64,000 nucleotides of DNA from Xestospongia muta. Lineage: Eukaryota; Porifera; Demospongiae; Haplosclerida; Petrosiidae. The stretch covers positions 2,619,646 to 2,683,645 of the forward strand of contig OY848921.1 in NCBI GenBank assembly GCA_963693285.1, given 5' to 3'. Position numbers and translations under genes: made by a program. Every line of letters starts with the position of its first letter. Within the stretch, counting starts at the first letter, position 1. Shown piece after piece: positions 3,563-61,300 of the stretch. The notes under the pieces were generated by a model. That model did no database searches. It was not told the origin of the DNA and saw nothing but the letters and a program-made list of their open reading frames with translations.

Positions 3563-6407
3563 ATGAAGTCATCAAGTTTACTTCTACTGGTACTTTTAAA
3601 GACTTTTTTAAACATTTCTAATAGTCAGTTAACAATACCTTTTTTGTATAATTAAAAATATGTTTTTAAACTTCAGGCTCATGTGTTTCATTAAATCTTG
3701 GCTATCCTGGATGTTGTGATTATTCATTGACATTTATATGTAGTGATAATGGCTGCTTCTGTGATAGACTGTGTCATATCCATGGAGACTGTTGCGGTGA
3801 CATTGCTAGTATTGGTTGTCACCCTGTTGGTATTACAACAGAGTCATATAAACCAATCACCTCTTTGGTTACTTCAACACTTATTAGGAAACCTATTCCA
3901 ACTGTTACTGTAGGCAATATCACTACAACTATATCATATACATCAATGTTAACTACCTCTCTTGTCACTGCACTAACTACAAGCACACCTACTCCAACTG
4001 TTACTGCAGGCAAGTTCACTATTATAGTTAAATACATATATCATTTTTGTCATGTTTAGGTTCATGCCTCTCACTGAACCTCAGTTATTCTGGGTGTTGT
4101 GATTATTCACAGACAATGTTATGTAGCAATAATGGTTGCTATTGTGATCAGAGCTGTCACAGTTATGGAGACTGTTGCAGTGATATTGGTAATATTAGTT
4201 GTTTGCCTGCCTCTTTACCAACTCCTTTGCCATCAGGTTAAGTTGTTATATGTTATTTATGAGTAATGGTATAGGTACTTAATAATTCTTACATCTTAGG
4301 GTCATGCCTTTCACTTAATCTCAAATATTCTGGATGTTGTCATTCCTCTCTCTCACTAATATGTAGTAATAATAACTGTTATTGTGATCAAGCATGTTAT
4401 GCACTTGGTGACTGTTGCAGTGACATTGCTAGTATTGGTTGTCACCCTGTTGGTATTACAACAGAGTCATATACACCAATCACCTCCCTGGTCACTTCAA
4501 TGGCTACAAGCACACCTATGTCCATTACCTCTGCAATAGTAACAGTATCTGCAACATCAAAATTCTCTCTTTTGTTTACTCCATCCATTGCAAAATCAAG
4601 TACACTTATTGCTTCTCCTAAAATTTTAAGTCAAAGTATAATTTTGTCTTTTTTGAGTACATCTCTTGTTTCATCCATTTTACCATCTTCTCTTTCGATT
4701 GTATCTGGAGTTAGTACATTTATTGTAACATCATCCATTTTGACTACTACAAATAGTGTTAGTTTTTCAAGCTCTAGATATGCCATATCGAGTATCATCC
4801 TGCCAACCTCTAATATACTGGTATCCTCAAATCCATCATCCATTATTTCAACATTAACTACACCTATACCCTCAAGTACATCCACAGCCATGTCAAGTGT
4901 ATCTATTACTCCTGTAAAGAGTTCTATATCCTTAACTCCTTCAATTACTACATTCATTGTAAGTACTTCCACCAATCCTATGCATGCAAGCAGTAGTGCA
5001 TCATCAACCATAGTTGTTATAACATCTATTTCCTCAAGCAATGCTAAATTAACATCATCTATTTTGAGTACTTCTACTACTTCTTCCATTACAATGTCAC
5101 CTCTTTCGAGTGCTACTATGAACAGTTATGTGTCATTATATCAGATTATAACATCTATTGCTCCAACAACCAGTACAAGTACTTCGACTGCAAAATCATC
5201 TTTTTCAACTATATTCACTGTTGCTAGAGGTAGTTCCATATTTTCAAGTCTATTTATACCATCATATAATTCTATTGTTCCTACAATGTCACCTCCTTTG
5301 AGTACTACAAGTGCTATTGTTAACAGATACATGTCATCAAGTCCATTTATTGTGACATCCATTGTTACAACTGTTTCAATTATACCATCATCATTATCAT
5401 TAAGTATACTATTATCAAGTTCTACTAAAAAAAGAGGTGACATGACCACACCAATAGAAACTACATTCAAAGTGGAGCCTACCACTCTTCCTAAAGCAAT
5501 AACTGATAATACACTTGTGGTCAATGTAAATGGCTACACTGCGGAGACAGTAAGTATTAATTTATTATTGATTACAGGGTTTGTCTTCTTTGTATATACA
5601 GTTTATAGCAGATGTTCTGTTAAACTTTAAACAAGCTATAATTAACTCCTGCAATGTTTACTGTCCCTCACATACTGACATATGTATTGGTATCTCTATT
5701 AGTAGAAAAAGACAGTAAGTTAAATACTAATTATAAGACAATATTTCACATCACACTCTACCCTTTTAGAAGTACATGGACATTACTTACAGCTGATAAT
5801 ACAATTATACTAAGTGTCAATAATGCAATTAATGGTGGAGTCAACATCTCACTTTATGTACAATTAACAGAGACTTCTATTCTATCCATTAATCCACTAA
5901 AAAAAGCTATTAAAGTATATTTTAAGTTAATACTATTTGAATTAATCATTTATTTTACATACAGAGTGGTATAGTACAAGGTATTTATAGAAGTGCTGGT
6001 TTCAATAATGTTACAATACTCAGTTTGGATCAACCAACAACAGCTACTAAAAACACAGGCAATGATTCTATTGGTATAGTTGCAGTGGTTATTGGTATAG
6101 TATGTATTGTCTCTGCTGTCCTCATAATCTCAATGACAGTTGTATTCTTGTAAGTACTTTATAATAATATTCATATTTAAGTCTTTGCTGCAAAAATCTT
6201 AGAAAAAAATGTGGACATAGCAGTACTTACTCTTTTCGCTCACGAAGTATTTCTCTTACAAACCTCATAACCAATCAAGATGAGAATATTTATGTGATGA
6301 CAGGGACTGAGGCCGAAGACCCACTGTCTGGGGAGATAACAGTAGGATCTGTTAATGATCATAAAATGGATAATCAAGAAGAAGATATAACCAAAAAAAT
6401 TATGTAA
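3563..6407 (+). CDS. Somatomedin-B-like mucin-type membrane receptor, gene 1 (3 SMB modules)
   Basis: Exons that close in frame: 3563-3623, 3677-4009, 4060-4236, 4300-5549, 5578-5714, 5770-5914, 5965-6149 and 6203-6407, giving 830 residues. Exon 1 is a signal peptide (MKSSSLLLLVLLKTF). Exons 2, 3 and the start of exon 4 each encode one SMB-like module, with the core C-[YF]-C-D-x2-C-x5-C-C-x-D-I. This is close to the somatomedin B pattern C-x-C-x3-C-x5-CC-x-D-[FY], but has Ile for the aromatic residue and one extra spacer residue. Exon 4 continues as a long Ser/Thr-rich, presumably O-glycosylated stalk. Exons 5-7 encode a membrane-proximal region of unknown family and one membrane helix (IGIVAVVIGIVCIVSAVLII). 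Exon 8 is a cytoplasmic tail of about 68 residues with a single Tyr (NIYVMTG). The intron after exon 2 starts with GC. Ligand and function are unknown; a surface adhesion or recognition role is inferred. Confidence 0.8.
5550..5577 (+). other. 28-nt intron of receptor gene 1
   Basis: It begins GTAAGT and ends ACAG. Removing it joins exon 4 to a 137-nt open exon that ends exactly at another GTAAGT donor. Leaving it in reads through into a hydrophobic segment (NLLLITGFVFFVYTVYS) and a stop codon at 5628-5630. The same arrangement exists in genes 2 (12901-12928) and 3 (22643-22670). Confidence 0.65.
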
Positions 6408-6945
6408 CAATCAAACTTTGAAAGTCTTTTTTGCATTCTTATTGCATCCGTTATTGTCGTATAATATATTATATTACATTATAATAATGCTGTTTTTATA
6501 AATGGTGGGCTGCTCCTGTCAATTTAATAAAATTATTTTCAATGCATTTAATTATTAATATTAAATTTTCTGCTGTTATATTTTTCACCCAAAAAAGTTT
6601 AATGAAATGATGTTAAATTTTTATGAACTCAAATGTAAGCAAACTGGAAAGAGTTTGACATAGCTATATATAGTCCTTAAAGATATATGTCTCAAGTAGT
6701 TACAATATCATTACAGTTACATAGTCTGCAAAAGATTAAAATTAGATATAGTACAGTTGTTATAGTGGAGTGTATTGATATGTTATGACACAAGTACAAG
6801 CCACCAGTATTTCTATTAACACCAGTAATATTCCTTTATATTCTCACTTCAAGATATTCACTTATTTAGTTGTTGCAATACATTTGTCTCGATAAAAAAG
6901 ACAATATTAATATAAATTATGGATTATAGAAGTTGATTTCTAGAT
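6408..6945. other. Intergenic 3' flank of receptor gene 1
   Basis: No coding signal is seen. A polyadenylation-like AATAAA occurs at 6526-6531. The stretch is paralogous to 13753-14195 and 23503-24040, confirming that the duplication unit includes the convergent receptor/SMYD4 junction. Confidence 0.5.
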
Positions 6946-9369
6946 CTAGAAGTCATCTTTTAAAAGAAATGATAAATCAATGATGTTCTTGTAGTTATCA
7001 CCATAATACAATTTCAATAAAGGTAATGTTTTGTGAGCTATTTCCAAAGAACCAGTTTTGTCAGTTTTGTCAAAAATAAATGTAACAGTAACTACAATGA
7101 TTATATAGATATTCTCTCTTTAGTAGAGTAACATAAGGTGTCTCTGATAAAACAGTCACTAAATGACAAATCTTTCTTAGCCTACATAATATAAGCACAC
7201 ACACATCAATGTATATACACATGTATTATAATACATTTATACTTACAATTAAACCTCTTCCTTTTTTGGTAATATTTGAGCACATATAGAGGATGAACAT
7301 TAATCTTGTTAAGTCTTTTTCTCTTTACTACATAAACTAACATCAGATAATATCTATTATTGTAATATACTCTAACATATTATTGGGTTTAATTTGTTTT
7401 CTTTTATAATATCTTGAAATTCCCTTTGAAGTGTATCTGAACTTTCATTATATCTAACAATAATCATAATCATCTCAACCCTTTCTCTTTTGATGATAGA
7501 CAGATATTCTTTTCTTACACAGTTCAATAACTATAGCAATATCCATCACATAAAGATCTAATGTATTACTAATATTATTACTTACCTGATATTGGTTCAT
7601 CACTCTATCTAAATGAGCTAGACACTGGAGTAAAGTAGACATTCACTGTTAATTAGTGTTAATTTGAGTAATGTATTTATGATTGTGTTAATTACTTTTT
7701 ATTACTCCAATTCTTTCAGTATCAAATTTTGTTATTTAATAATGCTCTTTTTTATAAATCTTTTGGTAACCTTTGAATTGTCCTTATGAGTCCTTGGTCC
7801 TTGTAATTGTATTTAAGTTGATTATGTTGTTAGTTGTTTATGGTAAGTTTTAGCTAATATATTTCCAAGTGTTCAATACACAACAGACACAAAGCTTGTC
7901 TTTTGTATACTTTGAAGATAGTGGTATTAGGATATCCACTAGTAAATGCTCTATCAATATCTACTAAACACTCATATAGAAATAGACATCAGATAACAAT
8001 AATGATAGTTGTATTACTGACTTCATATTGTCCAAGTTCATATAGTGCAGCAGATATGTTGTCATAGCAATAGATAAGATAGGATCTTCAATTCCTTTAA
8101 CTCTTGCTAATTATGGATTACGTTGTAGATAGTCTCTTAAGAATGGATCACATGAGTCTACTAACTATAGTTCCTGTAGTGTTTAGTCTATTATCTCGCT
8201 AGGACATTTTACAACTCACTGAATAGTAACCAGTATGAAAGCAGAGAGGACAACACAATGTATCAATTAACTGCCTATCTATCTATTCATGCTAATGGTA
8301 AAAGATTAGGTGACTTCTTAAAACAATAACTACAATAAGTATATAAATATTCTCTTATTAGTAAAACAACATAAGGTGTCTCTGATAAAACACAGTCATC
8401 AAATGACAAATCTTTCTTAGCCTACATAATATGAACACACATACATCAATATATATACACATGTATTATAGTAAATTTATACTTACAACTAAACCTCTTC
8501 CTTTGTCTGGAGTTGATTGAACACATATAAAAGATGAACAACAGTGTCCTAGTTCTTCAGTATTTGGCTTCCCTTTACTACACAAACTATCATGAAGTCA
8601 TATCTATTATTGTAATATAATCTAACATATTGTTGGGTTTAATTTGTTTGGTTTGTTGAACTTTCTTGAACTTTATTTTGAAGTGTACCTGAACTTTGAT
8701 TATATCTAACAATTATTATATCGTCTTATACGTTTCTCTTTTGATGATAGACAGATAATTCTATTCTTAAACTGTTCAATAACTATAACAATATACATGT
8801 GATAAAGATATAATCTATTACTAGTAATATTACTTACCTGATGTTGCTTCATGACTCCTACCTAGATGAAGTAGACACAAAGCTTGTCTTTTATATAGTT
8901 TAAAGATAGTGGTATTAGGATATCCACTAGTAAGTGCTCTATCAATATCTACTAAACACTCCTATAGAAATAGATATCAGATAACAATAATGATAGTTGT
9001 ATTACTGACTTTATATCGTCCAAGTTCATGTGGTGCAGCAGATTTGTAGCCATAGCAATGAGGTAAGATAGGATTTTCAATTCCTTCAAAACTTTTATTA
9101 ATGATGAATCATGTTGTAGATAATCTCTTAAGAATGGATCACATGAGTATAGTTCCTGTAGTGTTTGGTCTATTATCTCACTAGGATATGGAGCAAAGAA
9201 CAAAGCCTAATATATACAGTACATTTTATTCATAACTAGACTTATAATACCCACTAACTTGAGTGTAATATTTCACTGCAATGACTAGGTCTTTTTCTTT
9301 AAAGTATTTAGTGCCTTCTTCTTTTAATAATGTAACTTTAGAGGCAGACTTAGGATCACCTCCAGACAT
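6946..9369 (-). pseudogene. SMYD4-like pseudogene, two partial copies fused (A2)
   Basis: The last exon (GDNYKNIIDLSFLL type, stop at 6946-6948) is directly followed by exons from the middle of the protein at about 7084-7260, so the SET region, post-SET cysteines and MYND finger are deleted. An in-frame stop interrupts the exon near 7290 (D-stop-CSSSIC). Exons 3 and 2 follow at about 7890-8200, after an insertion near 7630-7880 that resembles 15425-15605. A second partial copy begins at a MYND fragment near 8210-8255. It repeats the same middle exons and ends with an intact-looking first exon (MSGGDPKSASKVTLLKEEG; ATG 9367-9369). It is a recombination relic and not functional as an SMYD4 enzyme. 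Confidence 0.7.
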
Positions 9370-9859
9370 TGACTGTATTGGGGTTACATTTTGAAGCCAA
9401 ACAACCAGATGACCTCTTAGACTAATGTGGTTGTTTGGCTTCAAGGCCTCATTCTTGGAATCATGATGCAGCAAGAGTTACTAGAAACTCACAGATATAG
9501 TAGATCTAATAAAAACATGATAAGATAATTACTCATGTTTTTGATTTCTAATACTTCATCTACACTACATGTTGGTTTTGGCTTTACAACTAGTTACATA
9601 GCAATATAATTAACACATTGTCATTATTACACTTCTGTAGTTTCTTCATAGTAAGACCATTGGTATAGTTACCATATATGTGTATATTCCACACATATAT
9701 GGTAACTGTCTAGCTGTGGTGGACAGGAAGATAGATAAGTGAATTTCTACTAATGTTTATCAAGTAAAGAAAGAAAAAAGGCAATTAATTTTATGATATC
9801 CTAGTTGTTAATATATCTTTAATATGTTCTTAATTAATTCCTCATTATAGACCTTAAGC
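9370..9859. promoter_or_regulatory. Upstream region of unit 2 with a perfect 16-bp stem palindrome
   Basis: There is no gene. The inverted repeat at 9668-9706 has perfect 16-base arms (GTTACCATATATGTGT and its complement) around a 7-base loop. The equivalent positions in units 1 and 3 keep the ATTCCACAC core but not the full palindrome. This may be a shared bidirectional promoter. Confidence 0.4.
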
Positions 9860-12800
9860 ATGAAGTCATCAAGTTTACTTCTCCTGGTACTTTTAAAGAC
9901 TTTTTTTAGCATTTCTAATGGTCAGTTAAAACAATGCCTTTCTTTATATATTTAATATTATGTTATTAAACATTCAGGCTCATGTGTTTCCTTAAATCTT
10001 GGTTATCATGGATGTTGTGATTATTTGTTGACATTTATATGTAGTGATAATGGCTGCTATTGTGATAGACTGTGTCATATCCATGGAGATTGTTGCAGTG
10101 ACATTGCTAGTATTGGTTGTCACCCTGCTGGTATTACAACAGAGTCATACACATCAATCACCTCTCTGGTCATTTCAACAGCTACAAGCACACCTATTTC
10201 GACTGTTACTGCCAGCCAGTTGACCACAACAATGTCACATATAACAACTCTGGTCACTTCAATGGCTATGACCACACCTGTTCCAACAGTTACTGCAGGC
10301 AAGTTCAATATTATATTTAAATACATTATGATTTCTCATTTCTATAGGTTCATGCCTTTCACTGAACCTCAATTATTCTGGGTGTTGTGATTATTCACAG
10401 ACATTTTTATGTGGCAATAATGGTTGTTATTGTGATCAGAGCTGTCACAGTTTTGGAGACTGTTGCAATGATATTGCTAGTATTGGTTGTCATCCTTTTG
10501 GTTTTACACCAACAACCTTTCTGATCACTTCACTGACTACAAATATATCACCTATTTCAACTGTTACTTCAGGCAAGTTCACTACAACAATAATGTCATA
10601 TACACCAACCACCAGTCTGGTAACTTCCTTGACTATAAGGACATCTATTACAACTGACAGCATGCTGATTACAACAATGTCACATATACCAACCAACTCT
10701 CTGGTCACTTCAATAGCTATGACCACACCTATTCCAACTATTACTGGAGGCAAGTTCATTATATTATAGTGAAATATATACGTCATTTCTCATTTCTAGG
10801 CTCTTGCCTTGCACTGAACCTTGGCTATCATGGATGTTGTGACTATTTCTTGACATCTATATGTAGTGATAATGGTTGCTTTTGTGATCAGAGCTGTCAC
10901 AGTTTTGGAGACTGTTGCAATGACATTGCTAGTATTGGTTGTCATCCTTTTGGTTTTACACCAACAACCTCTCTGATCATTTCACTGACAACAAATACAT
11001 CACATATTTCAACTGTAACTTCAGGCAAGTTCACTACAACAATAATGTTATATACACCAACCACCAGTCTGGTAACTTTCTTGACTATGACCACACCTAT
11101 TACAACTGTTACTGACAGTATGTTGACTACAACAATGTCACATAAACTAACCACATCTCCAGTCACTTCAATAGCTATGACCACGCCTATTCCAACTGTT
11201 TTTGCAGGCAAGTTCATTATATTATAGTGACATATATACATCATTTCTTATTTCTAGGGTCTTGCCTTTCACTGAACCTTGGCTATCATGGATGTTGTGT
11301 TTATTCATTGACATTTATATGTAGTGATAATGGCTGCTATTGTGATCAGAGCTGTCACAGTTTTGGAGACTGTTGCAGTGACATTGCTAGTATTGGTTGT
11401 CACCCTGTTGGTATTACAACAGAGTCATATATACCAATCAACTCTCTGGCTACTTCAACAGTTACTACCACACCTATTCCAACTGCTACTGCAGGCAAGT
11501 TCACTATTGTATTTAAATATGTATATCATTTCTTTCATGTTTAGGTTCATGCCTTTCACTGAACCTCAATTATTCTGGATGTTGTAATTATTCACAGACA
11601 TTTTTATGTAGCAATAATGGTTGCTATTGTGATCAGAGCTGTCACAGTTATGGAGACTGTTGCAGTGATATTAGTAACATCAGTTGCTTTCCTGCCTCTT
11701 CACCAACTCCTTTGCCATCAGGTAAAGTCATTATATGTTATTTATGATTAATGATACAGGTACTTAATCATTCTTACAAACTTAGGGTCATGCCTTTCTC
11801 TTAATCTCAACTATTCTGGATGTTGTGATTATTCTCTCTCACAATCATGTGTTAATAATGACTGTCATTGTGATCAACAATGTTATACACTTGGTGACTG
11901 TTGTAGTGATATTGCCAGTATTGGTTGCTTTTTTTCCAGTGTTATTACAACAAGTATTATATCTACAAGTCAATTCACAGTAATGTCTTCTATTTCAAAT
12001 ACTCATGTTGCTATATCATCAAACATGGTCAGACTAACGTCAAGCACACATATCGTTTCTACATCTTTAAGTCTTTTCCTTTCACAATTTTCAATTTTTA
12101 ATTCACCTTCTGCTTATTCAACCAGACCTATGTCCATTACCTCTTCAATGGTATCTGCAACATCAAGATTGTCTCTTTTATTTACTCCATCCATTGCAAA
12201 ATCAAGTACACTTATTTCTACTATGAGTACTCCTGAAGTTTTAAGTCAAAGTATATTATCGTCTTTTTTCAGAACTTCTCTTGTTTCATCTACTGTACAA
12301 TCTACTACATTCATTGTAAGTACTTCCACCAATCCTATGCATGCAAGCAGTAGTGCATCATCAACCATAGTTGTTATAACATCTATTTCTTCAAGCATTG
12401 CTAAATTAACATCATCTATTTTGAGTACTTCTACTACTTCTTCCATTACAATGTCAACTCTTTCAATTACTACTATGAACAGTTATGTGTCATCAAATGA
12501 GATTATAACATCTGTTGCTCCAACAACCAGTACAAGTACTTCAACTGTAAAATCATCTTTTTCAATTATATTCACTGTTACTAGAGGTAGTTCCATATTT
12601 TCAAGCCTATTGATACCATCATATAGTTCTATTGCTCCTACAATGTCACCTCCTTTGAGTACTACAAGTGCTACTGTATACATGTCATCAAGTCCATTTA
12701 TTGTGACATCCATTGTTACAACTTTATCAACTATACCATCATCATTATCATTAAGTATTCCAATATCAAGTTCTACTACAAAAAGAGCTTACATGACTAC

Positions 12801-13752
12801 ACCAATAGAAACTACATTCAAAGTGGAGCCTACCACTCTTCCTAAAGCAATAACTGATAATACACTTGTGGTCAATGTAAATGACTACACTGAGAAGACA
12901 GTAAGTATTAATTTATTATTGATTACAGGGTTTGTTATCTTTGTATATACAGTTTATAGCAGATGTTCTGTTAAACTTTACACAAGCTATAATTAACTCC
13001 TGCAATGTTTACTGTCCCTCCCATACTGACATATGTATTGGTATCTCTATTAGTAGAAAAAGACAGTAAGTTAAATACCAATTATAAGACAATATTTCAC
13101 GATCACACTCTACCCTTTTAGAAGTACATGGACATTGCTTACAGCTGATAATGCAATTATACTAAGTGTCAATAATGCAATTAATGGTGGAGTCAACATT
13201 TCACTTTATGTACAACTAACAGAGACTTCCATTCTGTCCATTAATCCACTAAAAGAAGCTATTAAAGTATATTTTAAGTTAATATTATTTGAATTAACCA
13301 TTTATTTTACATACAGAGTGGTATAGTACAAGGTATTTATAGAAGTGCTGGTTTCAATAATGTTACAGTACTCGGTTTGGATCAACCAACAACTGCTACT
13401 AAAAACACAGGCAATGATTCTATTGGCATAGTTGCAGTGGTTATTGGTATAATATGTATTGTCTCTGCTGCCCTCATAATCTCAGTGACAGTTGTATTCT
13501 TCTTGTAAGAACTTTATGATGATATCCATTTTTAAATGTTTGCTACAATCTTTTAGAAAAAAATATGGCCGTAGAAGTACTTACACTTTTCGCTCACAAA
13601 GTATTGTTCTTAAAAATCTCAAAACCAATGAAGATTGTGCGATGACAGGGACTGAAGCTGAAAACCCGCTGTCTAGGGAGATATTAGTAGGGTTTGTTAA
13701 TGATCATAAAATGGATGGTCAAGAAGAAGATATAACAAAAATGATTACATAA
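9860..13752 (+). CDS. Somatomedin-B-like mucin-type membrane receptor, gene 2 (6 SMB modules)
   Basis: Exons: 9860-9920, 9978-10298, 10348-10749, 10800-11207, 11258-11494, 11545-11721, 11786-12900, 12929-13065, 13122-13266, 13317-13504 and 13557-13752. They join without a stop to 1128 residues. Architecture is as in gene 1: signal peptide, six SMB-like modules (exons 2-7), Thr/Ser/Pro-rich spacers, a mucin-like stalk, a membrane-proximal region, a membrane helix and a tail. Exons 3 and 4 have longer Thr-rich spacers containing an internal GGCAAGTTCACTAC, identical to a used splice donor, which suggests fusion of former exon ends. The introns after exons 2-5 use GC-AG borders. The tail has lost the Tyr present in genes 1 and 3 (NEDCAMTG). 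All SMB exons are phase 1-1, so copy number can change without breaking the frame. Confidence 0.8.
12901..12928 (+). other. 28-nt intron of receptor gene 2
   Basis: Same position and length as in gene 1, with GTAAGT and ACAG borders. Splicing gives ...ACA|GGT TTG, continuing open to the donor at 13066. Retention gives a hydrophobic C-terminus that here runs on a few residues to a later stop, because the gene 1 stop codon is changed. Confidence 0.65.
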
Positions 13753-14195
13753 CAATCAAACTTTGAAAGTTTTCTTACATACTTAACAATGCATCAGTTT
13801 TGTCATACTAAATATAATAATGCTGTTTTTCATAAATGCTAGGCTGCTGCTGTCATTTTAGTAAATTATTTTCAATGAATTTAATTATTAATATTAAATT
13901 TTCTGCTGTTATGTTTTTACCTAATGAAGTTTAATGAAATGATATTAAATTTTTAAGAAGTCAAATGAAGACAAACTGGGAAGACTTTGACATAACTTTA
14001 TAATTAGTACTATATAGTCTCCAAAAGATTAAAATTAGACATAGTACACTAGTTATAGTGGAGTATATTGGTATACTATGATTCCAGTACAGCCACCATC
14101 ATTTGTATTAACAGTTAAACACCAGTAATATTCATTTATATCTTCATTTTAACATATTAATTTATTTTCGATTAAGGTAATGTTTTGTGAGCTAT
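13753..14195. other. Intergenic 3' flank of receptor gene 2
   Basis: Paralogous to 6408-6945 and 23503-24040. I see no gene in it. Confidence 0.5.
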
Positions 14196-14404
14196 TCCTG
14201 GCCCAACAGAGCCCGATCAATGTACATACACATGTATTATAATAAATTTATACTTACAACTAAACCTCTTCCTTTGTTTGGTAATATTGAGCACATAAGG
14301 AGAATGAACAATAGTCTTGTTAAGTCTTTTTCTTTTTACTACATAAACTAACATCAGATAAACTCTATTATTGTAATATATTCTATATATTACAATAATA
14401 TATT

Positions 14405-15335
14405 ATATTTATTGGCAAGTATTATTATACTTTTGTATTTATCCTCAAATTTATGTACCTATTTTATTTGCTCAATTTCAGATGATATTCTGATAATTTT
14501 CTGATAACATTCTTACAATTTTCAGATAATTTAGGGTGAACAAATCATATGCTTTTCAGATGGCTGCCAATGTATTTCCCCTCCATTTCAAAGTAATTGT
14601 TGCAATGCTTTTTCTATGAAACTCAGATACAACAGATCAGTAGTGGTATTGGGGTTAAATTTTCTAAGCGGCCACACGTTGTTTGCCTTCATGGCCCTTC
14701 ATTCTTACAATCATGATATAACAAGAATTAATAGAGACTCACAGATAATAGATCTAATGAAAACGTTGATGTTGATGAGAGAATGGATCATGATATAATG
14801 AGAATAAGAGTTATTGATTTATCTTGCTGTAGTATGTTTAATAGATGAGATGCAGTCAAATCACGATAGATATTATATAAATAAATAGGGTGCTTCTTGG
14901 TGTAACTTGACTGATGATGTGTAACATGTCCTATGATGACATCACAAGTGTCATAGAGTTAATAATGTTAGGTTTGGTTTAGGGTTAGGTGATATCATCA
15001 ATATAATGGCATCACTATGTGTCATTTCATTATGATGTCATCATAGTCAGTTACACCAAGAACCACCCAATAAATATGATCACATGACATTTGTATTTGA
15101 GGTATGTAACAGATTACGACTTTGACAACATTCTAAGGTTTGTTCTATTGCTGAATGTATAACTTATATAAAATATTACCTAATTTAACACAATGTAATT
15201 AGAACGTGTAGTGTAAACAATTAAATTGCAGTATAATTACTTATGTTTTTGATTTCTAATGCTTCACCTGTACTATATGTTAGTTTTGGCTTTAGAACTG
15301 AGTTACATTACAATATGGACTACATTGTCATTAGC
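14405..15335. repeat. Duplicated upstream block, copy 1 (other copy 16112-16820)
   Basis: Long direct duplication beginning TATTTATTGGCAAGTATTAT and ending near ACTACATTGTCATTA. It contains the GGGGTTAAAT...AATGGATCATGATATAATG segment that also lies upstream of the other SMYD4 copies. It differs from the second copy mainly by a 181-bp insertion at 14888-15068. Confidence 0.7.
14888..15068. mobile_element. 181-bp MITE with 8-bp target duplication
   Basis: The inverted ends read GGGTGCTTCTTGGTGTAAC and, on the other strand, GGGTGGTTCTTGGTGTAAC. It is flanked by AATAAATA at 14880-14887 and 15069-15076. The paralogous block near 16550-16575 has the empty site with one AATAAATA. An 8-bp duplication fits a hAT-type non-autonomous element. 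Confidence 0.8.
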
Positions 15336-15734
15336 AATATCCATCACATAAAGATGTAATGCATTACTAATATATATTATTATTTACCTGATGTTGGTTC
15401 ATCACTCTATCTAGATGAGCTAGACGGTGGGGTAAACTAGACATACACCTGTTAATTAGTGTTAATTTGAGTAATGTATTTTATGATTGTGTTAATTACT
15501 TGTTATTAGGCCAATTCTTTCAGTATCAATTTTTTTGTTATTTAATAATGCTCTTTCTAATATATCTTTTGGTAACCTTTGAATTGTCCTTATGAGTCCT
15601 TGCTCCTCGTACTTATAACACCTGCTGATTTAAGTTTAATATATCACTGTAATGTAGTACTCTTTAAAGTATTTAGATTCATCCTCTTTTAATATTGTAG
15701 CTTTAGAGACTTACACAGCATCACCTACATCCAT

Positions 15735-16111
15735 TGACTGTATACTACTGCAATGGTATATCTGAAAATATCTAAATACTATCATATTTTTCACACATGT
15801 CTGAATAACATTGGAATTTTATTGGACTTTACAATCTTCCTGAAATATATAATGTCTGAATATTGTCTCAAAAGGTCTGTATGTAAATATTGGTAAGTGA
15901 TGCAGAAGGTGAAAAACAATTATGTTAAGTGACACTAGAAAGTCTCTTTCAAGTGAGCAATGACGTGTGTCAGCTTTCACATTCACAAAAGTTTGAGCAT
16001 CCACTTCATGTGGGCAAAGATGTATCATCACATCAAAAAAGAAAAACAGAGTTGAAAACTAACAAACTCGACTAACAAGTATTATTATTATTACACATTA
16101 TGCATATCTTT
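15735..16111. other. Intergenic stretch without recognised gene
   Basis: The 70-codon minus frame inside (15819-16031) has no recognisable motif and no splice context. I regard it as non-coding. Confidence 0.35.
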
Positions 16112-16820
16112 CTATTTATTGGCAAGTATTATACTTTTGTATATATCCTCAAATTTATGTACCTATTTTATTTGTTTGATTTCAGATGATATTCTGATAA
16201 TTTTCAGATAATTTAGGGTGCACAAATCATATGCTTTTCAGATGACTTCCAATGTATGTCCCCTCCATTTCAAAGTAATTGTAGCAATGCTTTTCAATGA
16301 AACTCAGATACAACACATCAGTAGTGGTATTGAGGTTAAATTTTCTAGGTGGCCATGTGTTGTTTGGCTTCATGGCCATTCATTTTTACAGTCATGATAT
16401 AACAAGAGTTAATAGAGACTCACAGATAATAGATCTAATGAAAACGTTGATGTTGATGAGGGAATGGATCATGATATAATGAGAATAAGAGTTATTGATT
16501 TATCTTGGTGGAGTATGTTTAATAGATGAGATGCAGTCACATAAAATAGATATTATATAAATAAATATGATCACATGACATTTGTATTTGAGGTATGTAA
16601 CAGATTATGACTTTGACAACATTATAAGGTTTGTTCTATTGCTGAATGTATAACTTAAAAAATATTACCTAATGTGATATAATGTAATTAGAACTTGTGG
16701 TGTAAACAATTAAATTGCAGTATGATTACTTATGTTTTTGATTTCTAATGTTTCACTGTACTATATGTTAGTTTTGGCTTTAGAACCGAGTTACATTACA
16801 ATATGGACTACATTGTCATT
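16112..16820. repeat. Duplicated upstream block, copy 2
   Basis: Second copy of 14405-15335, lacking the 181-bp MITE. It leads into the upstream region of receptor gene 3. Confidence 0.7.
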
Positions 16821-16847
16821 ATTTCACTTCCATAATTATATATATAT

Positions 16848-17052
16848 CATTGTAAAAACTGACTGGTCGATTTAATCAATATGAAGCTTTACTGTTTGTG
16901 AAAAGTTAGAACTAATAATGATTTTTAAGGAGTAAAAGTGATATCATAATAATAATATAATAAGAACTATTACATGTTGTCTACCTTCTGTTTCCATCAT
17001 GTTGTCTGTATAACCATTTATTAAATAAATCAACCAGTCAGTTTTTATAATG
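16848..17052. mobile_element. 205-bp MITE upstream of receptor gene 3
   Basis: Terminal inverted repeats of about 27 bases: CATTGTAAAAACTGACTGG at the left end, and the complement of CATTATAAAAACTGACTGG at the right end. It is not present in the corresponding upstream regions of units 1 and 2. It lies about 225 bp before the receptor start. Confidence 0.75.
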
Positions 17053-17277
17053 ACATAGTTTGTTCTGAATCAATGGACTAAGAAGACCATAAGTGTAATT
17101 ATTGTACATGTGCACATTCCACACGTTATATTTGTTTGTCTAGCTTTGATTGACAGGAAGCTAAGTGAGTGGAGTTCTACTTAGGTGTGTCAAGTAAAGA
17201 AGGCAAGAAGGTATTTATATTTTAGAGTCCCAATAGTTTATACATCATTGATATGTTCCTCATTATAGGCCTTAAGC

Positions 17278-20200
17278 ATGAAGTCATCAAGTTTACTTCT
17301 GCTGGTACTTTTAAAGACTTTTTTTAACATTTCTAATGGTCAGTTAAAACAATGCCTTTCTTTACATATTTAATAATATGTTGTTAAACATTCAGGCTCA
17401 TGTGTTTCATTAAATCTTGGCTATCCTGGATGTTGTGATTATTCATTGACATTTATATGTAGTGATAATGGCTGCTTTTGTGATAGACTGTGTCATATCC
17501 ATGGAGACTGTTGTAGTGACATTGCTAGTATTGGCTGTCATCCTGATGGTATTACAACAGAGTCATATACACCAATCACCTCTTTGGTCACTTCAATGAC
17601 TACAAGTACACCTATTACAACTGTTACTGCTAGCAAGTTGACTACAAAAATGTCACATATACCAACCAACTCTCTAGTCACTTCACCACCAGCTATGACT
17701 ACACCTATTCCAACTATTACTGAAGGCAAGTTCATTATATTACAGTGAAATACATACATCATTTACCATTTCTAGGCTCTTGCCTTTCATTGAACCTTGG
17801 CTATCATGGATGTTGTGATAATTCGTTGACATTTATATGTAGTGATAATGGTTGCTATTGTGATAGACTGTGTCATATCCATGGAGACTGTTGCAGTGAC
17901 ATTGCTAGTATTGGTTGTCACCCTGTTGGTATTACAACAGAGTCATATACACCAATCACCTCTCTAGTCACTTTAACAGCTACAAGGACACCTATTCCAA
18001 CTGTTATTGCTAGCAAGTTAACTACAAAAATGTCACATATACCAACCAACTCTCTGGTCACTTCAACAGCTATGACCACACCTATTCCAACTATTATTGC
18101 AGGCAAGTTCATTATATTAAAATGAAATACATACATCATTTACCATTTCTAGGCTCTTGCCTTTCATTGAACCTTGGCTATCATGGATGTTGTGATAATT
18201 CGTTGACATTTATATGTAGTGATAATGGTTGCTATTGTGATAGACTGTGTCATATCCATGGAGACTGTTGCAGTGACATTGCTAGTATTGGTTGTCACCC
18301 TGTTGGTATTACAACAGAGTCATATACACCAATCACCTCTCTAGTCACTTCAACAGCTACAAGGACACCTATTCCAACTGTTACTGCTAGCAAGTTGACT
18401 ACAACGATGTCGCATATACCAACCAACTCTCTGGTCACTTCAACAGCTATGACCACACCTATTCCAACTATTATTGCAGGCAAGTTCATTATATTATAGT
18501 GAAATATATACATCATTTCTCATTTCTAGGCTCTTGCCTTTCACTGAACCTTGGCTATTCTGGATGTTGTAATTATTCGTTGACATTTATATGTAGTGAT
18601 AATGGCTGCTTTTGTGATAGACTGTGTCATATCCATGGAGACTGTTGCAGTGATATTGCTAGTATTGGTTGTCATCCTGATGGTATTACAACAGAGTCAT
18701 ATACACCAATCACCTCTCTGGTCACTTCAATGGCTACAAGCACACCTATTCCAACTGTTACTGCTAGCAATTTGACTACAACGATGTCGCATATACCAAC
18801 CAACTCTCTGGTCACTTCAACAGTTACTATCACACCTATTCCAACTATTACTGAAGGCAAGTTCATTATATTATAGTAAAATACATACATCATTTCTCAT
18901 TTCTAGGCTCTTGTCTTTCACTGAATCTTAGCTATCCTGGATGTTGTGACTATTTCTTAACATTTATATGTAGTGATAATGGCTGCTTCTGTGATAGACT
19001 GTGTCATATCCATGGAGACTGTTGCAGTGACATTGCTAGTATTGGTTGTCATCCTGATGGTATTACAACAGAGTCATATACACCAATCACCTCTTTGGTC
19101 ACTTCAATGGCTACAAGCACACCTATTCCAACTGTTACTGCGAGCAAGTTGACTACAACGATGTCGCATATACCAACCAACTCTCTAGTCACTTCAACAG
19201 CTATGACCACACCTATTCCAACTAATACTGCAGGCAAGTTCATTATATTATAGTGAAATATATACATCATTTCTCATTTCTAGGCTCTTGCCTTTCACTG
19301 ATCCTTGGCTATTCTGGATGTTGTAATTATTCGTTGACATTTATATGTAGTGATAATGGCTGCTTTTGTGATAGACTGTGTCATATCCATGGAGACTGTT
19401 GCAGTGACATTGCTAGTATTGGTTGTCATCCTGATGGTATTACAACAGAGTCATATACACCAATCACCTCTCTGGTCACTTCAATGGCTACAAGCACACC
19501 TATTCCAACTGTTACTGCGAGCAAGTTGACTACAACGATGTCGCATATACCAACCAACTCTCTAGTCACTTCAACAGCTATGACCACACCTATTCCAACT
19601 AATACTGCAGGCAAGTTCATTATATTATAGTGAAATATATACATCATTTCTCATTTCTAGGTTCTTGTCTTTCACTGAACCTTGGCTATTCTGGATGTTG
19701 TAATTATTCATTGACATTTATATGTAGTGATAATGGCTGCTTCTGTGATAGACTGTGTCATATCCATGGAGATTGTTGCAGTGACATTGCTAGTATTGGT
19801 TGTCACCCTGTTGGTATTACAACAGAGTCATATACACCAATCACCTCTCTGGTCACTTCAAGAGTTACTAGCACACTTATTCCAACTATTACTGAAGGCA
19901 AGTTCATTATATTATAGTGAAATACATACATCATTTCTCATTTCTAGGCTCTTGCCTTTCACTGAATCTTGGCTATCATGGATGTTGTGACTATTTCTTA
20001 ACATCTATATGTAGTGATAATGGCTGCTTCTGTGATAGACTGTGTCATATCCATGGAGATTGTTGCAGTGACATTGCTAGTATTGGTTGTCACCCTGTTG
20101 GTATTACAACAGTATCATATACACCAATCACCTCTCTGGTCACTTCAATGGCTACAAGCACACCTATTCCAACTGTTACTGCTAGCAAGTTGACTACAAC

Positions 20201-23200
20201 GATGTCGCATATACCAACCAACTCTTTGGTCACTTCAGCAGCTATGACCACACCTATTCCAACTTTTACTGCAGGCAAGTTCATTATATTATAGTGAAAT
20301 ATATACATCATTTCTCATTTCTAGGCTCTTGCCTTTCACTGAACCTTGGCTATTCTGGATGTTGTGATTATTCGTTGACATTTATATGTAGTGATAATGG
20401 CTGCTATTGTGATAGACTGTGTCATATCCATGGAGACTGTTGCAGTGACATTGCTAGTATTGGTTGTCACCCTGTTGGTATTACAACAGAGTCATATACA
20501 CCAATCACCTCTCTGGTCACTTCAACAGTTACTAGCACACCTACTGTCACTTCTACTGTTGCTAATACACCTATTCCAACTATTACTATAGGCAAGTTCA
20601 CTACAACATCAATGTTAACCACCTCTCTTTTCACTACACTAACTACAAGCACACCTATTCCAACTGTTACTATAGGCAAGTTCAATATTATATTTAAATG
20701 AATAAATCATACCTGTCATGTTTAGGTTCATGCCTTTCACTGAACCTCAATTATTCTGGATGTTGTGATTATTCACAGCCATTGTTATGTAGCAATAATG
20801 GTTGCTATTGTGATCAGAGCTGTTACAGTTTTGGAGACTGTTGCAGTGATATTGGTAATATCAGTTGCTTTCCTGTCTCTTCACCAACTCCTTTGCCATC
20901 AGGTAAAGTCATTATATGTTATTTATGAATGATGATACAGGTACATAATCATTTTTACTAACTTAGGGTCATGCCTTTCTCTTAATCTCAACTATTCTGG
21001 ATGTTGCGATTACTCTTTCTCACAAATATGTAGTAATAATGACTGTCATTGTGATCAAGAATGTTATACATATGGTGACTGTTGTAGTGATATTGCCAGT
21101 ATTGGTTGCTTTTCTTCCAGTGTTATTACAGCAAGTATTATATCTACAAGTCAATTCACAGTAATGTTTTCTATTTCAAATACTCATGCTGGTATATCAT
21201 CAAACATGGTCACACTAATGTCAAGCACACATATTATTTCTACATCTTTAAGTCCTTCCCTTTCACGCTCATCAATTTTTAATAAACCTTCTGCTTATTC
21301 AATCAAACCTTTGTCCATTTCCTTATCAATGGTATCTGCAACATCAAAATTATCTCTATTATTTACTCCGTCCATTGCAAAATCAAGTAGACTTATTTCT
21401 ACTACGAGTACTCCTGAAGTTTTAAGTCAAAGTATAATATTGTCTTTTTCAAGTACTTCTCTTGTTCCATCCACCGTACCATCTTCTCTTTCAAATGGAT
21501 CTAGAGTTAATACATTTATTGTAACATCATCCATTTTGACTACTACAAGTAGTGTTACCATATCGAGTATCATCCTGCCAACCTCTGATATACTGGTATC
21601 CTCAAATCCATCATCCATTATTGCAACATTAACTACACCTATACCCTCAAGTACATCCATAGCCATGTCAATTGTATCTATTACTTCTGTAAAGAGTTCT
21701 ATATCCTTAACTCCTTCAATTACTACATTCATTATAAGTACTTCCATTAATCCTATGCATGCAAGTAGTAGTGCATCATCAACCATAGTTGTTATAACAT
21801 CTATTTCTTCAAGCATTGCTAAATTAACATCATCTATTTTGAGTACTTCTACTACTTCTTCCATTACAATGTCACCTCTTTCAATTACTACTATGAACAG
21901 TTATGTGTCATCAAATGAGATTATAACATCTGTTGCTCCAACAACCAGTACAAGTACTTCAACTGCAAAATCATCTATTTCAACTATATTCACTGTTAGT
22001 AAAGGCAGTTCCATATTTTCAAGTCTATTTATACCATCATATAGTTCTATTGCTCCTACAATGTCACCTCCTTTGAGTACTACAAGTGCTACTGTATACA
22101 TGTCATCAAGTCCATTTTTTGTGACATCCATTGTTCTTACAACATCCTTCATTGAAAAAACATCTACTTCAAGTATTTCTATAACTCCTTCCATTGTAGC
22201 GTCACCTCTTTTGAGTACAACTGAAAACAACTACATATCTTTGAGTTCAATTATTGGAACATCTGTTGCTCCTACAAGCAGTCAGACTATATTTTCAAGC
22301 ATTTCCCCTGAAAAATCATCTATTTCAAGTATACTCATTGCTACAAAATATAGTATTACCATCACTCTTACAACCAGTTCAAAATCCAATATTATTGGTG
22401 TATCTAGTCCAAACAGGTTTGCTCATTCAACAATACTACCTATGCTCTCTTCCATTGTTTCAACTTTATCAACTATACCATCATCATTATTATTAAGTAT
22501 TCCAATATCAAGTTCTACTACAAAAAGATCTGACATGACTACACCAATAGAAACTACATTCAAAGTGGAGCCTACCACTCTTCCTAAAGCAATAACTGAT
22601 AATACACTTGTGGTCAATGTAAATGACTACACTGAGGAGACAGTAAGTGTTAATTTATTATTGATTATAGGGTTTGTCTTCTTTGTATATACAGTTTATA
22701 GCAGATGTTCTGTTAAACTTTAAACAAGCTATAATTAACTCCTGCAATGTTTACTGTCCCTCACATACTGACATATGTATTAGTATCTCTATTAGTAGAA
22801 AAAGACAGTAAGTTAAATACCAATTATAAGACAATATTTCACATCACACTCTACCCTTTTAGAAGTACATGGACATTGCTTACAGCTGATAATGCAATTA
22901 TACTAAGTGTCAATAATGCAATTAATGGTGGAGTCAACATTTCACTTTATGTACAACTAACAGAGACTTCCATTCTGTCCATTAATGCACTAAAAGAAGC
23001 TATTAAAGTATATTTTAAGTTAATACTATTTGAATTAATCATTTATTTTACATACAGAGTGGTATAGTACAAGGTATTTATAGAAGTGCTGGTTTCAATA
23101 ATGTTACAGTACTCGGTTTGGATCAACCAACAACAGCTACTAAAAACACAGGCAATGATTCTATTGGTATAGTTGCAGTGGTTATTGGTATAGTATGTAT

Positions 23201-57267: not shown

Positions 57268-57955
57268 TCAAAAGGCAGCATGTAAATCGGACTCTGTACT
57301 AATAGGAATAGTTACTGTTGAACTACCTATACCTGGAACAGATACCTCAACTATAATAGCATCAGCACAATTAGTAGATTCTACTCTTGGATCTTGAATG
57401 CGTGTACAGATACCTCCATCTCTGTCAATCTGTATGAGATGTTGCCGGTGTTCTGGTAATGTGGCATGATTTTCTGTTACCTGAACTATCGCTCGAGCTA
57501 GACCATGATAGGCACTCCTCCATGATACTTGGTTAGGTTCATGACAGGCTGGATTACCATTACCTACTCCAATGATCCTTCCAGGACCACTAACAATACT
57601 AAATGTGACATTATGGCTTGAAGAGTGAACAACTCGACCATTGGAGTCTAATATAGCAGCACTGACCAAACCACTATCCTGACCATTGAGAAGAAGAGCA
57701 AACCCTGTCCCTGTTTCTTCGTTAGGAACATCAAGATATGCCATAATTTTAGAAGGTGTACCATTAGTGAGAACAGTGTGGGTAGCCATAATGGAATGTT
57801 GATCAGAAAGAGCTGTAGCTGTTAAATTACCAGAAGAATAGATAACATTCCATTCAGCCTAACCTTGCCACACTAATTGCTGTACACCCTGAGCTTTATC
57901 ATTGATAAAAAGTTTAGCCATTGGAACATTGGTAATATTATAAGGTTATGAATAA
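57268..57955 (-). pseudogene. C-terminal part of a bacterial-type glycoside hydrolase family 2 protein
   Basis: The open reading from 57789 to 57268 contains SIVSGPGRIIGVGNGNPACH and HGLARAIVQVT, the hallmark of the C-terminal beta-sandwich of bacterial-type GH2 beta-galactosidases. Homology continues upstream of that ATG (NITNVPMAKLFINDKAQGV..., then AEWNVIYSSGNLTATALSDQ), but a TAG at about 57863-57865 interrupts it within ...LVWQG-stop-AEWN. Another stop lies just before the YNITN segment. No catalytic domain is present. The end is shortened relative to the remnant at 48336-48398. Animals do have GH2 enzymes (beta-glucuronidase, beta-mannosidase), but this sandwich is of the bacterial type. 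Transfer from a bacterium is inferred. Confidence 0.7.
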
Positions 57956-58945: not shown

Positions 58946-61047
58946 ATGAAATCTGCAAAGAAACTATCTCCTTCTCAATTCAAGGAAGAAGAGAAGTGGA
59001 ACAATCTTACAAGCCTCATAGCTCATGAAGCACAGAAAATGGGTATGATAATGTGTAACATTATCATTGTATGAGTTTATGTCAGTGTTGTTATTTTTAT
59101 TCTATAGATTACTTTGAATCGGAACTTAAGTTTGCAAAGGACAAAGGATCTCTTGTCATTATAGGTTCTGGTATCAAAAGTGTTGGCCAATTTTCTCTCG
59201 AAGCAGTTTCACATATCAAGTCTGCAGATAAAGTCCTCTTCTGTGTTGCTGATCCTGCTACCGAGGTTTTCATCAAGGAGCTGAACCCAGATGCAATGGA
59301 TCTGGATGTTTTCTATGCAGATGACAAGAAACGTTATGACACAGATGTCCAGATAGCTGAGGTGTGTCTCTTTTATGCTCGTAAGGGACTCAATGTTGTT
59401 GCAATCTTCTACGGTCATCCTGGAGTCTTAGTGTTGTCATCTCATCGAGCTTTTAAAATAGCCCTCAAACAAGGTATGTATATGGTTATATACAAGCAAT
59501 CCTGAATTAGATTGTATCTCTTTTATTAAGGTATCAAGGCATACATGCTCCCTGCTGTATCAGCAGAAGATTGCCTCTTTGCTGACTTGGGAATAGATCC
59601 ATCTTTTCCTGGTCTACAAACTTTTGAAGCTACTGACCTACTACTTCGGCATCGTCAAATCCTCACTGATGCTAACGTTATTATCTGGCAAGTTGGATGT
59701 GTTGGAGACCTTGGATTTCGTAGGAAGGGTTATCTCAATGAGAACTTCCACATTCTAATCGATCACTTGCAAAAGATATATGGAGAAGACTATGTGATAA
59801 CTCACTACATTAGTGCTCATTATCCAGTATGCAGAGCACTCATTGAAGAAATACCTTTAGCTAAGTTCTATGAGCCTGATGTGGCCAAACGAGTCATTAG
59901 ATTCTCTACATTCTACATTCCTCCCAAAGTTTATAAGGACATAGATTCTGCTATGGCTGTTCGATTGGGAATCGTACTAAAAAAAGAGGATGCATGGCTT
60001 ATCGAGAGTAAGCGAGATTTGACCAAGTATGGTCCTAGAGAAATCAATGCAGTCAAAGCACTTGATGATTATACTGTTCCTTTTCCATACGCTCACACAC
60101 CACCAAGTAAGGCTGCTCGTTATTTAGGGGCTCTTAGTCAAGATGTGAAATTGTTACGACAACACACAATCAATCCAGATAAAAACATGGAAACATTTGG
60201 TTTAACCAATAAAGAGAAGGAAATAATCAAAGGTGGACACAGTGATCATATTTGCATGATGTTGAAGACTGATTCAGGTAAAGTTGCAGAACAACTTGCT
60301 ATTCATTTGGTGACAGATCCGCAGTTTGCCTCCAAGTATGCTGCTCAAGCACGCAAGTATCTGGAAGACTCAAATGGTCTTGAGCATATTGAGAAATGGC
60401 TTCTTTTTGAGGGATACGATACTACACCCGAGGATGTAATAACTGCTGCTGTCAACCTTCAAAAGACTTCTTTGCTCATGTGGAGTGGAAATTATTCAAC
60501 TAACATAAATGATATTTATATTTTAGTGCAGGGAATGAGCCCACCATTACATGGCAGAGTTTGGATAAATAATATTTATATTAAAAAGATTGCTTTTCTT
60601 AATAAAACTCTCTCTTGGTCTGAATTTGATGGTAACCAATCCAACGCAGAGCTTAATTTTACAGTTAATGAAAATGGAGTTTTCATTTTTAGTGGGAAAT
60701 ACTGGGAAGCTGGTTCTTCAAAACCACCCACTGATAATCTCACAGGTGAAGATACAGGTTTTGAAGATACACCAGGTCTTAAAGAGAATGCTCAAATATT
60801 GATAAGTGGGTTAAGGAGCATCGACTTAATGGTGGCAACTTCAAGGGCCATTGTTGACCTAAATAAATATTTGAAAAATCCAACTCAAGAAAACAAGGAG
60901 GTATATCAAAAAGCTATAGACGAGGCAGAAGCAGCTTCATTAAGACAATTAGATGCTGAAAAAAATGTCAAGCAGCAAAATCCTTCTGAAGTTGATGCAG
61001 TGGCTACACCAGACCTTTTGTTTGCTGAAAATAATGAATTTCATTAA
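58946..61047 (+). CDS. Borosin-type peptide alpha-N-methyltransferase homologue
   Basis: Three exons, 58946-59042, 59108-59473 and 59531-61047, with GT-AG introns of 65 and 57 nt, give 659 residues. The fold is a SAM-dependent tetrapyrrole methylase: IIGSGI at residues 50-55, the FYGHPGV loop at 133-139, and LPAVSAEDCLFADLGIDP at 161-178. The order and detail (DLDVFYADDKKRYDTD at 97-112, IIWQVGCVGD, YIPPK near 283-287) match borosin methyltransferases, which N-methylate backbone amides of a C-terminally fused or separate precursor. Tyr102 and Arg108 align with catalytic Tyr/Arg of the fungal enzymes, but a further catalytic Tyr is Asp112 here. Residues 399-454 (AIHLVTDPQFASKYAAQARK...) resemble the LigA-like precursor-binding region. 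A beta-rich domain of unknown type follows at 471-554 (WSGNY...FSGKYW), then an acidic linker and a helical tail. No typical hydrophobic core peptide is evident. A CACTA-like element begins 42 bp after the stop. Confidence 0.85.
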
Positions 61048-61201
61048 ATAGTTGTGTTCTTGGTATGAAAAAATAGGTTTAAAATCATTCACTGTGAAAA
61101 CAATGGTGTTAATGTCACACCAAAATGCAGTGTCAAGCATCTGTGCAATTTTGACCCCTTTGTGGTGTCAAATTAAACACCAGTTTGGTGTCATTGTTAA
61201 C

Positions 61202-61300
61202 ACCACTCACTGTCATACAGCTTTCACCACTGAGTGTCATATAGCTTTCACCACTCAGTGTCATATAGCTTTCACCACTCAGTGTCATATATATATAGCT
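61202..61300. repeat. 24-bp tandem repeat inside the CACTA-like element
   Basis: About four units of CACCACTCAGTGTCATATAGCTTT-type sequence, ending in a short AT run. Confidence 0.85.

Follow-up and report, generated by a model that had tools for sequence, protein, structure and literature searches.

Does an animal genome encode the N-methylation of ribosomal peptide backbones? The question is raised by a gene on the plus strand, at positions 58946-61047, of the 64,000-nucleotide stretch of Xestospongia muta DNA analysed here (the window). It is confirmed that this gene belongs to the borosin family and lies in animal DNA. Judging from its sequence, we consider it rather likely to be a shortened paralog, probably without catalytic activity, of the complete, type III-like fused borosins found on another contig of the same genome, C13. 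The two C13 copies are called A and B below, and the window copy is abbreviated to W in pairwise comparisons; it lies on contig C5 (8,747,271 bases, in a genome of 158,027,690 bases and 28 contigs), of which the window spans 2,619,646-2,683,645.

As originally predicted, three exons splice in frame, through the joins 59042-59108 and 59473-59531, into a protein of 659 residues followed by a stop, and both introns are of the GT-AG type; A and B are interrupted at the same two positions. The closest sequence matches of this protein in the PDB were dbOphMA (E 8.9e-79), OphMA (about 8e-75), MroMA (6e-69) and SonM (6.6e-39). Borosin enzymes account for 25 of the 26 PDB sequences listed at E ≤1, the other being unrelated (E 0.95), so that a chance match is excluded. 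The match spans both halves of the methyltransferase fold and enters the clasp (query 45-368), as the original prediction had claimed, and the clasp contains helices like those of the borosin-binding domain of fused borosins. The protein also matches Pfam PF00590 (E 6.5e-14); by eye, the genome's fourth match to this domain (L118, C8:8041680-8041793) is a putative diphthine synthase. In a comparison that had been proposed with the original prediction, borosins ranked first, ahead of cobalamin and diphthamide methylases, in both sequence and structure. The window copy thus resembles the fused fungal borosins OphMA, dbOphMA and MroMA in its fold, its clasp and its borosin-binding-domain-like bundle, all in one polypeptide, but differs from them in that Asp replaces both Y63 and Y76 and a hydrophobic core is missing at the C-terminus. 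It is therefore treated here as a family homolog and is not classed as a working borosin.

The active site was compared in an alignment of 64 chosen sequences (60 of 278 proteins, with the window copy, A, B and OphMA). At the equivalents of OphMA Y63, Y66, R72, Y76 and Y98, A and B have Y, Y, R, Y and Y, and the window copy has D, Y, R, D and Y. The Y63 column (50 letters) holds 46 Tyr, two Phe and one Ser besides this Asp, while in the Y76 column (54 letters) the Asp of the window copy is the sole exception to 53 Tyr. It departs at two of 35 near-invariant columns, six rows having been left out of the column definition. Y63 and Y76 are the tyrosines of OphMA that hold the substrate amide, with Y58 and Y71 as their SonM counterparts (PMC8429565). 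In SonM, kcat/KM is 14-fold lower in Y58F and 98-fold lower in Y71F, and the double mutant has no measurable activity (PMC8429565); in KchMA, the loss is moderate for Y70A and significant for Y83F (PMC11395268). The tyrosines of both enzymes were equated with the OphMA positions through their authors' statements and equal spacing.

The C13 paralogs A (1169 residues) and B (1170 residues) are intact tandem genes with three equivalent exons and no stops. Each has five beta repeats as well as a helical hairpin, and its Thr/Glu/Val tail ends in EVVEVEIIVL or VEAVDVVAA. The window copy is 77% identical to them in DNA over 58946-60742; repeats two to five are then missing, and the alignment resumes in the hairpin. 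It has consequently lost four of the five beta-barrel repeats as well as the C-terminal core, and ends in VDAVATPDLLFAENNEFH. The last 70 residues have an acid fraction of 0.34 in A and B and 0.19 in the window copy, and an S/T fraction of 0.46 and 0.50 in A and B and 0.09 in the window copy; a Thr-Glu repeat pattern was looked for in the window and none was found. Type III cores alternate acidic and other residues (PMC11395268), and in the wording of that paper a long tail of this kind marks the type; A and B resemble it in this respect, and C-terminal to the clasp they carry a core-like tail that the window copy lacks. The type III-like protein P0016 of Clonostachys likewise has extra repeats, a helical hairpin and an acidic alternating tail, although its tail is Ala/Glu and that of A and B Thr/Glu/Val. 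The window copy differs from type III borosins in having one repeat and no alternating acidic tail; the bacterial type III enzyme KchMA enters these comparisons by its description (PMC11395268), not by alignment. Because both substrate-holding tyrosines and a recognisable core are missing, the window copy probably does not methylate itself and is probably catalytically dead. To our knowledge, it would be the first borosin pseudoenzyme. The candidates for working enzymes in this genome are A and B.

Features of the borosin gene in the window (all on the plus strand)
Feature	Position	Strand	Basis and remarks
Exon 1	58946..59042	+	Residues 1-32 and first base of codon 33; spliced frame; A and B (C13) have an equivalent exon
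Intron 1	59043..59107	+	GTATGA...TATAG; position common to A and B
Exon 2, N-terminal half of borosin methyltransferase domain	59108..59473	+	Spliced frame, borosin matches
Codon GAT, Asp99	59305..59307	+	At OphMA Tyr63 / SonM Tyr58 position; alignment column
Codon GAT, Asp112	59344..59346	+	At OphMA Tyr76 / SonM Tyr71 position; alignment column
Intron 2	59474..59530	+	GTATGT...TTAAG; position common to A and B
Exon 3	59531..61047	+	C-terminal methyltransferase half, clasp, one beta-barrel repeat, helical hairpin, short tail, stop
Borosin-binding-domain-like helical bundle in clasp	60103..60270	+	Residues 346-401
Single beta-barrel repeat	60466..60768	+	Residues 467-567; C13 paralogs have five
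Predicted long helical hairpin	60778..60978	+	Predicted secondary structure; homologous to the paralogs' pre-tail hairpin
Low-confidence tail VDAVATPDLLFAENNEFH	60991..61044	+	pLDDT <50; Thr/Glu/Val core-like tail at this place in the paralogs

Further copies were found by searching the sponge's own genome, which gave 48 matches when counted exon by exon: three on C5, 17 on C13 and 28 on C14, where open frames reach at most 293 residues. On C14, borosin remnants crowd the region at 2.96-3.49 Mb (L014-L029), where each of the 16 stretches examined holds nothing but fragments, many with stops. A search with the tail of A gave five places. Besides A and B themselves, these were an incomplete C13 copy containing a stop, the hairpin of the window copy (41%) and a C14 fragment. 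No free-standing precursor appeared in this search, which ignored introns and so would miss a precursor that is intron-split or dissimilar.

Selection was gauged by pairwise comparison of the copies. Over residues 1-570, A and B differ by a dS of 0.044 and a dN of 0.005 (ratio 0.12). The W-A ratios, pairwise values that average both branches, are 0.28 for residues 1-570, 0.18 for the methyltransferase domain, 0.275 for the clasp and 0.40 for the repeat. The 1977 coding bases of the window copy contain no stop or frameshift, although it has diverged from A by about 0.6 synonymous changes per site; in neutral simulations with half the differences, one of 2000 runs was stop-free and the mean was 6.3 stops. 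In relative-rate tests with nine outgroups (several without the N-half), the methyltransferase halves scored at most 1.6. The short form is common to P0002, which is 87% identical over 74% of the query; over residues 160-300, identity is 128/141 between W and P0002 and 136/141 between A and P0156, and P0002 and P0156 may come from one species or from two.

Several observations weigh against our reading of a constrained, non-catalytic paralog of working enzymes. On the branch of the window copy, dN/dS is about 0.43 for residues 1-570, 0.29 for the methyltransferase domain, 0.43 for the clasp and 0.57 for the repeat, looser than between A and B; these ratios were obtained by subtraction, in which one branch was given the A-B values and dS was assumed equal; for the clasp, in which A and B have no non-synonymous change, the 1-570 value of 0.12 was used. 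On these figures, constraint has loosened without being lost. One of the nine outgroups (P0024, 5.76) reveals a rate excess in the clasp; for P0024 and P0010, differences before residue 155 are false because their gene models read through an intron. In P0002, a motif that is otherwise mostly invariant carries odd substitutions (VIILQVGFVGD vs VIIWQVGCVGD), and these, together with the looser constraint, make ongoing decay possible. The substitutions reported in SonM and KchMA, in the text available, are to Phe and Ala, not Asp, and both Asp codons are known from one assembly, since P0001 and P0002 lack exon 2 and thus bring no confirmation from a second genome. Finally, the C13 tail is likened to a methylated core by resemblance only.

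An alternative is that the gene is simply decaying and without function, a younger counterpart of the borosin fragments of C13 and C14. The loss of the core, four repeats and two catalytic tyrosines would fit such a copy, as would a constraint looser than in A and B and a genome rich in decayed relatives (28 of 48 matches on C14, fragments in 16 of 16 stretches). However, its 1977 coding bases have stayed intact at a divergence that one neutral run in 2000 survived without a stop, the short form recurs in P0002, and the methyltransferase halves show no marked excess of rate against the nine outgroups, even though the clasp does against P0024. Simple decay is therefore unlikely in our estimation. 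We give still less credit to an active methyltransferase working in trans on a separate precursor. The fold and the equivalents of Y66, R72 and Y98 are kept, and a split architecture exists in bacteria (PMC8429565), but Asp stands at both substrate-holding positions and, within the limits of the intron-blind tail search, no free-standing precursor appeared; compared with the type IV split borosin SonM/SonA, the window copy has its binding domain fused. Slightly less credible again is a functional fused borosin, as in the original prediction, whose last residues would form an unusual core: family membership and a short hydrophobic stretch in the tail (PDLLF) speak for it, whereas the active-site losses and the composition of the last 70 residues, poor in acidic and S/T residues beside A and B, speak against it. 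Another tetrapyrrole methylase of cobalamin or diphthamide type, which the generic PF00590 domain would allow, or bacterial contamination can be dismissed as far as sequence allows, given that borosins top both comparisons and that the gene has two introns, an 8.7 Mb contig in a 158 Mb genome and intron-sharing paralogs, in line with the original claim that this is no stray bacterial contig.

For the preferred reading, a shortened and probably non-catalytic paralog, the following mechanism can be proposed. From family knowledge, A and B would form dimers in which each methyltransferase domain, fed by the clasp and borosin-binding domain, methylates the tail of its partner, in a SAM-dependent methylation of backbone amides in the C-terminal Thr/Glu/Val-rich tail. 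In the window copy, the fold, one beta-barrel, the clasp and the remaining active-site residues compared are retained, but the tail to be methylated and both amide-holding tyrosines are gone; it would therefore be expected to bind SAM and dimerise without methylating. Its frame has stayed open under a relaxed but non-zero constraint, as crudely shown above, so it may have a non-catalytic job. Our leading guess, a speculation that is more likely wrong than right, is that it pairs with a complete copy and damps its activity: the core of A would be held in a dead site and the site of A left empty, as a built-in brake.

The wider distribution of the family was examined in a tree of 61 rows, the long rows P0237, P0009 and P0164 having been dropped from 64; by eye, P0009 (a eukaryote transcript) and P0082 each contain two borosin-like methyltransferase halves in tandem. 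A group of 14 (96/84) unites the window copy, A, B, ten further proteins and Oscarella lobularis (Porifera), its named member and the nearest named relative; the group is labelled sponge by kinship. One side of a 79/92 branch holds 21 rows, consisting of this group, five proteins of four bivalve species and two others. In both trees built, bacterial type III-like proteins are the nearest outside group and the fungi stand apart. Named animal relatives among the matches listed (the best 120 in each list) are Pecten maximus, Ylistrum balloti, Argopecten irradians, Mya arenaria (two proteins) and O. lobularis. The C-terminus of Mya arenaria P0076, GDVVVVAVVIIMA (VVVVAVVIIMA), resembles a hydrophobic fungal core, and no such core-like tail is present in the three scallop proteins examined. 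P0024, which is close to Oscarella, has 1050 residues and a Thr/Glu tail. Several relatives begin within the region of window exon 3, and the acceptor of intron 2 is, we infer, consistent with the read-through starts seen in P0010 and P0024. In bacteria the family is widespread: genome contigs hold at least 521 related stretches, of which the best 80 were retained. At 79/92, the support is not decisive, and a single animal origin is neither shown nor rejected. We consider it rather improbable that a type III system was present in animals before the split of sponges and bivalves and still makes backbone-N-methylated peptides, with the core-less copy acting as a dominant-negative partner that limits self-methylation of the complete enzyme.

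The surroundings of the gene bear out the original prediction in part. It had described animal-type genes and transposons on both sides; one upstream frame, adjoining the borosin gene on the opposite strand, encodes a glycoside hydrolase family 2 C-terminal domain 5 (57268-57858, minus strand, E 5.8e-18), and no transposons were identified beside the gene in the part of the flanks checked. A short tandem repeat around CACTCAGTGTCATATAGCTTTCAC follows directly after the gene (61200-61300, by eye). At 4275-22723, Cys-rich repeats of about 45 residues, such as GSCLSLNLGYHGCCVYSLTFICSDNGCYCDQSCHSFGDCCSDIASIGC, run across many frames, accompanied by Ser/Thr-rich frames with a terminal membrane-like segment; three Cys-rich or Ser/Thr-rich frames examined from this region had no Pfam match at E 0.01.

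That borosins are not an established animal system, as originally stated, agrees with reviews in which types I-III are called fungal and IV-X bacterial (PMC11285071) or the family is placed in the fungal and bacterial domains (PMC9233826). It needs one qualification: a metazoan borosin from the coral Paramuricea clavata, which has an animal origin in common with the present genes and is known here by mention rather than sequence, appeared in passing in 2024, in one sentence and a network node (PMC11395268), and no test of it is described in the text available. The broader proposition, ribosomal backbone N-methylation encoded by an animal genome, would not stand on the window copy, which lacks both tyrosines and the core; we infer it instead from the C13 paralogs and the Oscarella and bivalve relatives. 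The biological interest accordingly lies in the family around the window copy rather than in the window copy alone. Backbone-N-methylated peptide chemistry in sponges is often credited to symbionts. If the reading proposed here is true, animals, given their intact, intron-bearing type III-like genes, would be possible direct makers of backbone-N-methylated ribosomal peptides.
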